Assembly: GCA_023300105.1 (NCBI GenBank)
Contig: JALZWM010000069.1
Span: forward strand, 1 to 62,008
Reading direction: 5' to 3'
Length of the DNA: 62,008 nt
From: Hellea sp.
GTDB lineage: Bacteria; Pseudomonadota; Alphaproteobacteria; Caulobacterales; Maricaulaceae
Part shown: positions 32,749-51,632 of the stretch, piece by piece
Layout of the letters: every line of letters begins with the position of its first letter
Position numbering within the stretch: the stretch's first letter is position 1
Made by a program: the position numbers and the translations under genes
Notes under the pieces: model-generated
What the model was told of the DNA's origin: nothing
Database searches by the model: none
The model's input: the letters and a program-made list of their open reading frames with translations, nothing else

Positions 32749-33402
32749 ATGGCCGACGATAAAAAAGATAGTCCGAAAAAAGATATCGAAATTCCAAAGA
32801 TGGAATTAGACGCGGATGGGTTGCCATCTGACGCTGAGCTTGAAGCTCTGCAAAAAGCCATTGATATGGAAATGGATGGTATCAACCAACGCGACGACGA
32901 AGCTGAAGCCGAAACAACACCCGAAAAACGCGTTGAAGAATTAGAGTTAGAGCTCGCCAATATTAAAGACCAGGCCCTACGCGCCATGGCTGATGCTGAG
33001 AATGTCAAAAAACGCGCAGAGCGCGAAGTCGCCGCCGCGAAGACGTATGGCATTGAACGCTTTGCTGTTGATGTTTTGGCTGTGCATGACAATCTTTCAC
33101 GCGCGCTCATGACGTTGGACGGAAAAGCCAAAGAAGATTTGGGTGATAACGCCAAGAACCTTATGGCGGGGATAGAGCTGACTGAGAAAGATTTAATCCT
33201 CACGCTGTCACGTCACGGCGTTCGTGCTGTGCCGGGCACAGGGTCTAAATTTGATCCAAATGTGCATCAAGCTGTAGCTCAAATCCCGTCTGATGAGGAA
33301 AAAGGGAATATCGCCACTGTTATGCAAACTGGCTTTACACTCGGTGAGCGTACGTTACGCGCCGCAATGGTCGCAGTCAGTACGGGCCCCGCCAAATCCT
33401 AG
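32749..33402 (+). CDS. grpE: GrpE nucleotide exchange factor
   Basis: 217 aa cochaperone that releases ADP from DnaK. A charged N-terminal tail of about 60 residues precedes the long coiled coil (EKRVEELELELANIKDQALR), the RAMADAENVKKRAERE signature, and the C-terminal beta-wing with FDPNVHQAVAQ and the TLRAAMVAV end. No dnaK/dnaJ lies in the window. The GrpE-like tail of the 48838 protein can be compared directly with this one. Confidence 0.95.
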   Translation: MADDKKDSPKKDIEIPKMELDADGLPSDAELEALQKAIDMEMDGINQRDDEAEAETTPEKRVEELELELANIKDQALRAMADAENVKKRAEREVAAAKTYGIERFAVDVLAVHDNLSRALMTLDGKAKEDLGDNAKNLMAGIELTEKDLILTLSRHGVRAVPGTGSKFDPNVHQAVAQIPSDEEKGNIATVMQTGFTLGERTLRAAMVAVSTGPAKS

Positions 33403-48572: not shown

Positions 48573-48837
48573 CTATTTCTCCCAGTCATAGATTTACTCT
48601 TATTATATTAAGCCTACTGCGGCTGAATAGAGACTGAATGCTTTTCATATAATTATTAATTTTTAATGTCATTGCCAGTTACCGAAAGCTCGCTGAAACC
48701 AGCATAAGACTTTGTCTTAAGTGAAAACAAAGCCGGAGCGGAAACGCTTCGGCTTATTCATTTGTGAAACAGCAAACCTAAAAGATTAGCACAGTAACGC
48801 ACTTGACTCTTCGCCCTCCGAACACGACATAAATTCT
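48573..48837. other. 265-bp divergent gap with an orphan hairpin
   Basis: This region lies between the minus-strand 112-aa gene and the plus-strand Hsp70 operon. It holds an 11-bp GC-rich hairpin (48730-48755) but no ORF. Both flanking promoters must be here; I could not assign boxes with confidence. Confidence 0.4.
48730..48755. terminator. Orphan terminator-like hairpin before the Hsp70 operon
   Basis: AAGCCGGAGCG pairs with CGCTTCGGCTT (one G-T wobble) around a GAAA tetraloop. On the minus strand it is followed by TTTGTTTTC, and on the plus strand by TATTCATTTG. Because the flanking genes diverge, it is not the end of either one, so it may terminate a small RNA or a leader. Confidence 0.5.
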
Positions 48838-49725
48838 ATGAGCGATAACCTCCCGGCAAACGTACCTTCCTTGGCAATCGCCTTTGAACCTGAGCGTCAT
48901 AGTTTACAGCTTGCTTTAACCGATGAGTTATCCGCAGCCCAAATTGTCGGCGAAGCCCGCCGTGCCCTTGACAGAACAGGCGCCGCTTTTTCCGCGAGCA
49001 CACAAGACCCAAAACTTCAAAAAACAGGATTATGGTTGATTGAAATGGTCAAAGCGGGCGCTGGTATTTTAGACCGCGCCAGTCACGCAGATATCGTCTG
49101 GTCCGAAACCGCCCCGCGCCCCGCGCGAAAATGGGCGGGGCGAAGTCTCTTTTACGGCGCCGCAGGCGTCTTTGCCGTAGCCGGTTTTGTGCAAGGTTCT
49201 GGCCTGACTATTTTAGGCGCTGCTGTACTTGCAGGCTTGCGGTTTTTTGACCCCAAAGACTGGGGACATCTTTTGCACAAAATCCCCTTTATAAAACGCC
49301 CGCCCGCGCTTGAAGATAAATCAGGCAGACGCCTAGAGGCTGCCGCACATATACGCACAGACGCCAATGGATTTATTACGCAGCTTGTCGACGCCTTAAA
49401 AACAGCGGACCATATTTTAATCCGCCTCGCCGAACCCGGACGCCAAACACATTGGCGGGAAAACTCACGCTTAATGAGTCTTGTGCAAAACCTGCTTGAA
49501 GCTGAAGGCGCAAATGATGGTGATTTTGCGCTTACCCTCATAAAGCAGGAACTCACATCTGTCCTTTCAGGCGAAGGTGTTGAGCTTATCTCTTACACAC
49601 CTAAAACCAAAAATCTTTTTGATATCCTACCGGCCATTGGCGAGACGAAAACAAAAATGGCCGCACCCGCTTTAAAGGCTGGGGATCAAATTTTGCGGCG
49701 CGGAACGGTGTGGCAAGCAGAATGA
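48838..49725 (+). CDS. Membrane protein with GrpE-like C-terminal domain
   Basis: 295 aa. Residues 1-100 are soluble and unrecognised. A membrane hairpin at 103-136 (RSLFYGAAGVFAVAGFVQGS and following) is followed by a cytoplasmic part (about 163-295) that resembles GrpE: a helical segment, KQELTSVLSGEGVELI, then a beta-wing-like end with FDILPAI and KAGDQILRRGTVW. Compare GrpE's HGVRAV, FDPNVHQAV and GERTLRAAMV. It overlaps the Hsp70 gene by 4 nt (ATGA). I infer a dedicated membrane nucleotide exchange factor for that Hsp70; the resemblance is weak and needs profile searching. Confidence 0.6.
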   Translation: MSDNLPANVPSLAIAFEPERHSLQLALTDELSAAQIVGEARRALDRTGAAFSASTQDPKLQKTGLWLIEMVKAGAGILDRASHADIVWSETAPRPARKWAGRSLFYGAAGVFAVAGFVQGSGLTILGAAVLAGLRFFDPKDWGHLLHKIPFIKRPPALEDKSGRRLEAAAHIRTDANGFITQLVDALKTADHILIRLAEPGRQTHWRENSRLMSLVQNLLEAEGANDGDFALTLIKQELTSVLSGEGVELISYTPKTKNLFDILPAIGETKTKMAAPALKAGDQILRRGTVWQAE

Positions 49726-51632
49726 GTAATGTAACCGCAAATGAATTTGTCGGCTTCGACCTTGGTCACGGCGAAAGCGCGCTTGGGCGCGCCTTTGGCG
49801 CAACAACGCGCGAACCTGAGATATTAGAATATCGCGGTGAACGCAGCTTTGTTACCGCTGTTGCCAAAACAAAAGATGGCATAAAAATAGGTGCCGACGC
49901 CGTGAACTTATCATTCATGGCAGGCGCGCCGCAGGTTTGGGTTAAATTCAAAGACCGAAAAATGAGCGGCCCTGACGTCGAAATTCCGACACGGCTTTTC
50001 ACACAAACACTTATAGATGGCCTCGCCAAAGACGGCATTATTCGCGGCGCAAAAGACAGCCGCTTTATTATTGGATGTCCCTCGGGATGGGAGGACAACA
50101 CCAAAGCAAGCTACCAAGCCCTCTTTGAAAGCGCGGGCCTTAAAACAGTTCGCATCGTGCCTGAGAGCCGCGCGGCCTTAATGACAGCCTTAGAGCAAGG
50201 TTATCTCTCGATTGATGACGCTAAAGCCTCTGTCCTTATTGTCGATATTGGTTCATCTACGACTGATTTCACCTATAGCCGTGACCTAGACGCTGAAGAT
50301 GTTGGGCATAATGTTTTAGGCTCTGGCCTCTTAGATACACATATTTTCAATCTCAATCTTACACGGCAAAAATCACGTAAGGATATTGAAAAACTTCTTA
50401 AAAAATATCCGCATTATAGACCCATTATGGAATATTGGTGCCGCCAAGCCAAAGAGGCTTATTTTACGGGTGAGGACAAACCCGTTGAAATGATCAAACG
50501 CCTACCCGTTAACGGCGGAATTTTATTCGAAATTCGGATTGATAAAAAAGATGCAGAAAAAATCCTAAATGCCCCGTTATCCGCTCTAGGGGGACAAAGT
50601 TGGAAAATGGCTTTTGACGCCGCCTTAAGAGATACGGTTGATATGCTCGGGGGCCGCGCGCCTGATACGATATTGTTAACTGGCGGAGCCTCACGTCTGC
50701 CTTTGGTTTTACCTGCAACAGAAAAAATCTTTCCGGGTGCCAAAGTTGTCCGCGGATCAGAACCAGAATATTCAATTGCTCGCGGCCTCGCATGGCTTGG
50801 CCGCTTTGAATTTCTACATGCAAGTTTTCAAAAATCTGTCGCCACATTATTAGCTAAAGACGGCGCAGTTTATGCCAAAGCTCAAAAAGCCTCACAGACA
50901 CTTGGCAATAAACTAGCCCCTGCATTGGTCGACGCAATGACGGATGGCTGCACCATACCTGTGTTCCAAGACTGGCGGTCTGGAAAAATAAAAAGCCTTG
51001 ATGACGTTGAGCTGGCTTTATCAGAGCGCGTTAAAGACTGGCTACAAGGTGACATAGCCACAGCCGTGCTTAAACCCGTCATCGATGAATGGTTTGCCGA
51101 GCTACAGCGTGATATCGAAAAAGAAACTGACCCACTGTGCCGTGATCACGGCCTTCCTGCTATGGTGCTTTCACTGGATGATAATCAACATGTTAGCCGC
51201 CACTTAGAAGACCTTGCTATTGCTGCGCCAAAAGTCGACACGTTAGAATCTGATGCCGCCTTTATGGGCACAACACTCACGGCGGTGATTATTTCTGCAC
51301 TTTTAGCCAAAGCCAATTTATTCGCCCCGCTCTTTCTAAACCCCATTGGCCTTGTGGTCGGGGGCGCCACAGCGGGAGGGATATTCATATTTGGCCGTAA
51401 ATCGCTACAAGGGCGTTTCAAGACAGCCAATGTCCCTGTTCTCGCGCGTCAAATTATGACAGATGGCCGTATACGTAAGGCCGCAGAAAAACAACGTCCA
51501 GACCTCATAACTGCGGTATCCGAAGCTTGGAGCCAAGCCGCCTCTGACCGTTTTACGGGTGAACTAACGCAGACACTCGAAGCCGCTTTAACAGAGCGCG
51601 CAGATGACCGCGCGATGCTTTTTTTAATTTAA
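49722..51632 (+). CDS. Divergent membrane-anchored Hsp70-family protein
   Basis: 636 aa. The actin-like ATPase core is intact in outline: phosphate-1 GFDLGHGES (residues 11-19, DnaK has DLGTTNS), phosphate-2 VDIGSSTTDF (174-183), adenosine motif LLTGGASRLP (318-327). After about residue 380 there is no DnaK-type substrate-binding beta sandwich; instead a helical region and a hydrophobic hairpin (about 510-555, TLTAVIISALLAKANLFAPL and LNPIGLVVGGATAGGIFIFG). The ATG overlaps the partner gene's stop, and the longer in-frame start at 49710 is less likely. No J-domain gene is nearby. Confidence 0.85.
   Translation: MSNVTANEFVGFDLGHGESALGRAFGATTREPEILEYRGERSFVTAVAKTKDGIKIGADAVNLSFMAGAPQVWVKFKDRKMSGPDVEIPTRLFTQTLIDGLAKDGIIRGAKDSRFIIGCPSGWEDNTKASYQALFESAGLKTVRIVPESRAALMTALEQGYLSIDDAKASVLIVDIGSSTTDFTYSRDLDAEDVGHNVLGSGLLDTHIFNLNLTRQKSRKDIEKLLKKYPHYRPIMEYWCRQAKEAYFTGEDKPVEMIKRLPVNGGILFEIRIDKKDAEKILNAPLSALGGQSWKMAFDAALRDTVDMLGGRAPDTILLTGGASRLPLVLPATEKIFPGAKVVRGSEPEYSIARGLAWLGRFEFLHASFQKSVATLLAKDGAVYAKAQKASQTLGNKLAPALVDAMTDGCTIPVFQDWRSGKIKSLDDVELALSERVKDWLQGDIATAVLKPVIDEWFAELQRDIEKETDPLCRDHGLPAMVLSLDDNQHVSRHLEDLAIAAPKVDTLESDAAFMGTTLTAVIISALLAKANLFAPLFLNPIGLVVGGATAGGIFIFGRKSLQGRFKTANVPVLARQIMTDGRIRKAAEKQRPDLITAVSEAWSQAASDRFTGELTQTLEAALTERADDRAMLFLI

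Follow-up and report, generated by a model that had tools for sequence, protein, structure and literature searches.

An overlapping gene pair in Hellea encodes an Hsp70-type ATPase without a DnaK-type substrate domain and a putative membrane protein with a predicted GrpE-like tail

The whole stretch of DNA analysed here, called the window, covers 62,008 nucleotides of contig JALZWM010000069.1 of a Hellea species (assembly GCA_023300105.1). It was found that two overlapping genes, here named U and H, lie on its plus strand. H encodes an Hsp70-type ATPase, and U encodes a putative membrane protein whose C-terminal tail has a predicted GrpE-like fold. It is fairly probable that H is an ATP-driven, membrane-located switch of the Hsp70 type and that U is its dedicated, membrane-anchored exchange factor. 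The two genes are as follows.

48838..49725, plus strand: gene U, 295 amino acids; N-terminal helical domain, hydrophobic helical hairpin and predicted C-terminal GrpE-like domain
49722..51632, plus strand: gene H, 636 amino acids; Hsp70-type ATPase, helical C-terminal half and hydrophobic hairpin

Both open reading frames (ORFs) are present and share four nucleotides (ATGA), as the first-pass annotation of this DNA had described. Two small points are corrected: U ends at 49725, and the start codon of H is most likely the ATG at 49722, while a GTG at 49710 would open a longer alternative ORF. The parts of H are listed below.

49743..50816, plus strand: Hsp70-type nucleotide-binding domain, H residues 8-365
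50484..50540, plus strand: beta hairpin, H residues 255-273 (strands 255-261 and 267-273), aligned with the subdomain IIB hairpin of Hsp70 (HSC70)
51249..51401, plus strand: hydrophobic hairpin by hydropathy, H residues 510-560, in a low-confidence part of the model
51609..51629, plus strand: conserved hydrophobic C-terminal tail RAMLFLI, H residues 630-636

The Pfam HSP70 model matches H above its curated cut-off (27.2 versus 20.6 bits, E 1.5e-6), over residues 115-359 only. The cut-off is also passed by two of the three H relatives scanned; a cyanobacterial relative (L068) gave no HSP70 match. A sequence search of the Protein Data Bank (PDB) with H returns Hsp70 chains. An AlphaFold model of H was made from 47 sequences (predicted local distance difference test score, pLDDT, 80; predicted template modelling score, pTM, 0.74), the divergent sequences of a second family of the same order, called f5, being left out of the folding alignments of both proteins. 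Foldseek matches this model to Hsp70 nucleotide-binding domains in the PDB with a probability of 1.00 (50 of 1278 matches listed), and VIA-align superposes it on such domains with a Z-score of up to 30.8 (root-mean-square deviation, rmsd, 3.5 over 335 residues). The structural matches among those listed are nucleotide-binding domains of the Hsp70/Hsp110 type, and one further row, a ciliary complex, names no chain. Weak hidden Markov model (HMM) matches had raised the possibility of an actin-like ATPase of the MreB, ParM or PilM type, but this was rejected because Hsp70-type domains make up the structural matches listed.

Residues D13, K77, E148, D175, T180, D182 and the pair GG321-322 of H are invariant in all 47 aligned members, and I take them to be the active-site residues of DnaK, that is, the phosphate motifs, the catalytic lysine and the adenosine motif. 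That the beta hairpin at 255-273 corresponds to the DnaK hairpin presupposes the usual mapping between DnaK and HSC70 numbering. The model consists of helices only from residue 348 to 635, and the HSP70 match ends at 359. A beta-sandwich substrate-binding domain with its lid, as found in DnaK-type proteins, is absent from the model. H belongs to the Hsp70 superfamily and works like an Hsp70 motor, while it is not a DnaK-type chaperone since the substrate domain is missing. The earlier description of H as a divergent Hsp70 with intact ATPase motifs and no DnaK-type substrate domain agrees with the Pfam match, the 47/47 invariance and the helical-only model.

The last residues of H deserve a separate remark. 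The tails in the groups compared read RAVLFLI, EAIILIQ, RAVLLIR and VVEIPL. In 22 of the 50 VIA-align rows, the last aligned residue of H is one of residues 632-636, facing the end of the nucleotide-binding domain or the interdomain linker of the matched protein, as judged from residue ranges only. In DnaK, the linker comprises residues 389-392, according to the accessible part of a study of DnaK and GrpE (PMC10825016). It is possible that the H tail stands in for this linker and signals to the membrane domain which nucleotide state H is in. Two observations count against such a role: the model draws the tail as a helix (608-635) and not as an extended linker, and in the f5 members the tail is followed by a few more residues.

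The features of U that bear on its resemblance to GrpE are the following.

49132..49245, plus strand: hydrophobic helical hairpin by hydropathy, U residues 99-136 (helices 99-119 and 122-136)
49450..49722, plus strand: predicted GrpE-like helices and small beta domain, U residues 205-295, by VIA-align, Foldseek and hhalign
49576..49578, plus strand: Gly247 of U, paired by hhalign with the Gly122 position of GrpE; glycine in 47 of 49 members

AlphaFold models U (pLDDT 86, pTM 0.55; 49 sequences) with a helical N-terminal half that includes the hydrophobic hairpin; helices at 176-198, 210-224 and 228-245 follow, and the chain ends in a small beta domain at 248-293. GrpE is a dimer with a long N-terminal coiled-coil stalk; where GrpE has the stalk, the U model has the helical half with the hairpin. 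When the U model was compared with 350,542 PDB chains by Foldseek, the top match was Thermus thermophilus GrpE (3a6m_B) with a probability of 0.98. The next-highest probability among the 50 matches listed was 0.18, so that GrpE was the sole high-probability match there. VIA-align places U 205-295 on 3a6m_A 69-168 (Z 7.8, rmsd 3.4, 85 residues), and GrpE is the only one of the 50 VIA-align rows that extends past U residue 246 into the beta domain. The matches to U 1-201 involve helical bundles (ribosome-biogenesis proteins, BAR domains, MxA and SynDLP) and were set aside as common arrangements.

The same register was obtained from sequence profiles. The U profile was reduced from 84 to 53 sequences by a redundancy filter and the GrpE profile from 27 to 24; the latter contains 24 GrpE sequences of the host phylum, including that of the same genome, while the pattern used for extraction failed to pick up three of 30 GrpE loci (L121, L123 and L133). 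With hhalign, the U tail and the GrpE tail align colinearly over 86-116 columns (P 0.0008-0.0033). When the six distant f5 sequences were omitted, the score was 31.4, compared with maxima of 20.7 in 150 column shuffles and 26.2 in 150 block shuffles, none of which exceeded the real score; 19 real families taken from flanking genes, used as a control, reached at most 22.7. With f5 included, the score was 27.4 and the column-shuffle maximum 19.7. In this alignment, Gly247 of U stands opposite a GrpE glycine that is presumably Gly122 in E. coli numbering. The G122D substitution of GrpE abolishes exchange, as stated in the part of PMC10825016 at hand. Five further residues of U (F261, P265, P277, A278 and G289) are invariant in 49/49 members. 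These results indicate that the resemblance of the U tail to GrpE exceeds chance, and the predicted model argues for a GrpE-like fold.

Several results weigh against this interpretation of U. The hhalign probability is modest (10-25%), and with f5 included one of the 150 block shuffles surpassed the real score (32.5 versus 27.4). The Foldseek E-value of the GrpE match is 0.072, a VIA-align Z of 7.8 is within the range that a common arrangement can reach, and GrpE ranks only fifth by Z, below four helical-bundle rows on U residues 1-201. None of the curated models in Pfam and NCBIfam identifies U as GrpE, only weak matches below the cut-offs being returned, and among the 49 U members GrpE was absent from the 25 listed of 42 weak families. 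A HMMER profile of U searched against PDB sequences with E-values up to 10 gave four weak matches, and GrpE was not among them. Likewise, the GrpE model PF01025 gave no match to the U of the window and seven other U sequences at E up to 10, a setting at which the HMMER filters drop most matches above 0.1. HMMER is blind to the link, and the case for it is therefore made by profile-profile alignment and by the comparison of structures; because the GrpE family model fails on U, the protein is called GrpE-like and not GrpE. The tail resemblance claimed by the first-pass annotation was recovered in two independent ways, by hhalign with its modest probability and by the structure search, so that it was not refuted on this count.

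Both proteins carry a hydrophobic hairpin, again in line with what had been noticed at first. U reaches a best 19-residue Kyte-Doolittle mean of 1.68, and H one of 1.95. Among the relatives, a value of at least 1.6 was found in 71 of 83 U sequences and in all 75 untruncated H sequences, five truncated H being left out of the count. The weakest U proteins (L038, L040 and L057, about 1.1) show little sign of a membrane span. In the H model, pLDDT is below 50 at residues 503-519 and 530-563, which cover the hairpin. It is probable from hydropathy that the hairpins of both U and H insert into the membrane.

Is this gene pair found elsewhere? A scan for related loci was performed with one genome per species (84,980 species), and the best 80 of 520 confirmed stretches were examined. 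Forty-four close loci (L021-L064) are, by title, from Hellea, Robiginitomaculum, Algimonas, Litorimonas, other Caulobacterales and the like. The other 36 are distant and comprise, by title, 27 Cyanobacteria, five Clostridia and one each of Deltaproteobacteria, Klebsiella, Thiomargarita and Bacteroidetes. The metagenome-assembled genome (MAG) labelled Klebsiella pneumoniae (L066) has flanking genes like those of the Deltaproteobacteria MAG (L065), and its species label is doubtful. A same-strand U ORF of at least 180 amino acids precedes H in 77 of the 80 loci, one of these U genes (L030) being shortened by the contig start. In the three loci where no U ORF was called, U is split over two frames (L048), the locus is cut at the contig start (L034), or H lies at a contig end and U is on another contig of the same genome (L098). 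Thus, the expectation that the pair would be conserved in other genomes was confirmed across phyla. Named strains with the pair include Hellea balneolensis DSM 19091, Algimonas arctica KCTC 32513, Robiginitomaculum antarcticum DSM 21748 and several Nostoc.

Among the 42 alphaproteobacterial pairs, 33 have overlapping genes (22 of them with a gap of -4), versus one of 35 others, and the gaps outside the Alphaproteobacteria reach 387 nucleotides. At the order level, H was found in 19 of 200 genomes, each of which carries U upstream of it. Six of these genomes, those of the f5 family (L014-L019), have a divergent pair, with an H identity of about 30% and a shortened U. The gene order is also kept in a very remote pair from Cyanobacteria (L156), whose H lacks the hydrophobic stretch (maximum 0.95 in the C-terminal half), while its U keeps a weak, glycine-rich one (1.55). 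The distribution of the pair is sparse. U was found in one of 299 genomes of the phylum and H in one of 385 genomes of the class, both times the genome of the window itself; a cyanobacterial sample had H in five of 146 genomes, including the seed genome and one remote case, and a sample around a Lachnospiraceae MAG had H in one of 299, the seed itself. These samples are thin, and absence from a group cannot be read from them. Calothrix brevissima NIES-22 carries H on a conjugative plasmid (L109, AP018209.1) together with a U ORF that diverges at its C-terminal end before the beta domain, and phage-type integrases are annotated near this pair. A phage origin was considered and rejected, since H has no match at E 1e-5 in 50,697 phage records.

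Within 36 alphaproteobacterial pairs and within 27 cyanobacterial pairs, the distances of U and H correlate with a mirror-tree r of 0.91; six loci (L030 and five with a truncated H) were excluded, as were the three in which no U ORF was called. This correlation was not counted in favour of binding, because any co-inherited pair would show it. BLAST of the flanking ORFs revealed no third gene that recurs across groups; sharing between groups is sporadic, with 16 matches between Alphaproteobacteria and Cyanobacteria, one between Alphaproteobacteria and Clostridia, and one between Clostridia and Cyanobacteria.

In the window, the ORF upstream of U lies on the minus strand, and one more feature separates it from the pair.

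48730..48755, plus strand: terminator-like hairpin of 11 pairs between the minus-strand upstream gene and U, by consensus scan only

The scan gave nine terminator-like sites versus a mean of 4.8 in shuffled sequences, about twice chance. Because the upstream ORF is on the other strand and the terminator-like hairpin intervenes, U and H probably form their own transcription unit. The canonical GrpE gene of the same genome is located at 32887-33381 of the window, whereas DnaK and one J-protein are found together on another contig (C89). The genome has three J-domain genes, none of them on the contig of the window, and a J-domain pattern, which recovers two of these three, found no match among the 1216 ORFs that flank the related loci. 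The early remark that the pair has no J-protein partner is supported for the gene neighbourhood only, and an unlinked J-protein may serve it.

How might the two proteins work together? GrpE rotates subdomain IIB of the Hsp70 nucleotide-binding domain and so opens the cleft, and a revised model of the DnaK-GrpE complex brings the beta hairpin of IIB (276-302) into contact with GrpE at the helices around Gly122, as described in the portion of PMC10825016 that could be consulted. H keeps a beta hairpin (255-273) where DnaK makes this contact with GrpE, and it matches Hsp70 nucleotide-binding domains, the domain type on which GrpE acts; both points support the proposal that H is an Hsp70-type membrane switch served by U. 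The overlapping genes and the one hydrophobic hairpin in each partner would hold U and H at the same membrane. The GrpE-like tail of U would open the nucleotide cleft of H, ADP would be released, and H would reload ATP. With both partners at one membrane, H would therefore cycle between its nucleotide states there without a gene-linked J-protein. Its output would be the helical, membrane-inserting C-terminal domain in place of a peptide-binding domain. Membrane insertion, binding of U to H, nucleotide exchange and membrane output are all inferred; the pair may act as a chaperone or as a switch, and U may carry out true nucleotide exchange. I would more tentatively suggest that the pair represents an undescribed class of Hsp70 machine, in which a helical membrane-inserting domain replaces the substrate domain, the tail gates it in the manner of a linker, a membrane-integral GrpE-like protein resets it, and membrane remodelling or extraction proceeds free of J-proteins; this wider notion is rather doubtful. 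A membrane-anchored GrpE working with an Hsp70 that has no substrate domain would mean that the engine made of Hsp70 and its exchange factor can be re-used beyond client folding, and the compact two-gene system in named strains would allow the role of the exchange factor to be separated from substrate release.

Other explanations may account for some of these observations. U may have a GrpE-derived domain that no longer performs exchange and instead serves as a scaffold or inhibitor, docking H to the membrane or keeping it in a single state. The hydrophobic stretch of most U proteins and the drift of U past recognition by Pfam would suit this idea, and the remote cyanobacterial pair, where H has no hydrophobic stretch and U a weak one, fits anchoring. 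However, the near-invariant Gly247 and the five invariant residues suggest that the domain is still functionally constrained, and loss of exchange appears unlikely. Less credible still is that helices and a small beta domain happen to look like GrpE and that U is an unrelated membrane partner of H. The weak sequence scores, the silence of HMMER and the single block shuffle that beat the real profile with f5 included speak for coincidence, but GrpE is picked out in register by two methods independent of each other, and U is paired with an Hsp70; I give this explanation very little weight.

The C-terminal half of H invites another reading, in which it would form a stalk and paddle like those of bacterial dynamins, so that an Hsp70 motor instead of a GTPase would drive membrane remodelling. 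This half is indeed helical with a hydrophobic hairpin, and the LeoBC model of PADLOC, which I take to be dynamin-like, matches H 454-605 weakly (E 7e-4). Since this is one weak HMM match in a helical and hydrophobic region, and the hairpin is a low-confidence part of the model that lends no fold evidence, such an architecture is improbable. A conflict or defence module seems about equally improbable. Its sparse and scattered distribution, the plasmid copy amid genes annotated as phage-type integrases, and a precedent in the GAP1-N2 systems, where HSP70 and GrpE occur together with an HSP70 domain that has lost the peptide-binding part (PMC7159879, available part), are in its favour. In contrast, no PADLOC family matched U at E up to 1, H is unmatched in the phage records, and the BLAST of flanking ORFs gave no recurrent third gene, although no scan of the flanks for effectors or defence islands was made. 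Taken together, an Hsp70-type membrane switch with U as its dedicated exchange factor is the explanation that I favour.

No published description of the U-H pair was found among the open-access papers listed, as judged by title or abstract opening. Several known systems are similar in part. The best NCBIfam match of one H relative (L097) is NF008673 (E 9.6e-8), presumably the YegD family; however, it scores 31 bits against a cut-off of 331, and H differs by an additional helical half, which bears the hydrophobic hairpin, and by its partner gene. The match to LeoBC is weak and lies in the helical, hydrophobic C-terminal region of H, whose motor is of the Hsp70 type, and no GTPase family appears in the Pfam match list of H. 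The nearest precedent found is the group of GTPase-centred GAP1-N2 conflict systems, in which, as far as the available part of PMC7159879 describes them, an HSP70 without the peptide-binding part is likewise combined with GrpE. Those are multi-gene GTPase systems, whereas U and H are the only two recurring genes here (the flanks were not scanned for a GTPase), and U is not recognised by the GrpE model. Finally, the canonical DnaK-GrpE machine differs from the pair in several respects: H has no beta substrate-binding domain, both proteins carry hydrophobic hairpins, a helical and membrane region of U replaces the long N-terminal stalk of GrpE, and no J-protein gene linked to U and H was seen. 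In common with it, H has an Hsp70 nucleotide-binding domain with an intact active site, and the U tail matches the helices and beta domain of GrpE and keeps the Gly122 position. The pair thus has the appearance of a DnaK-GrpE derivative that operates at the membrane.

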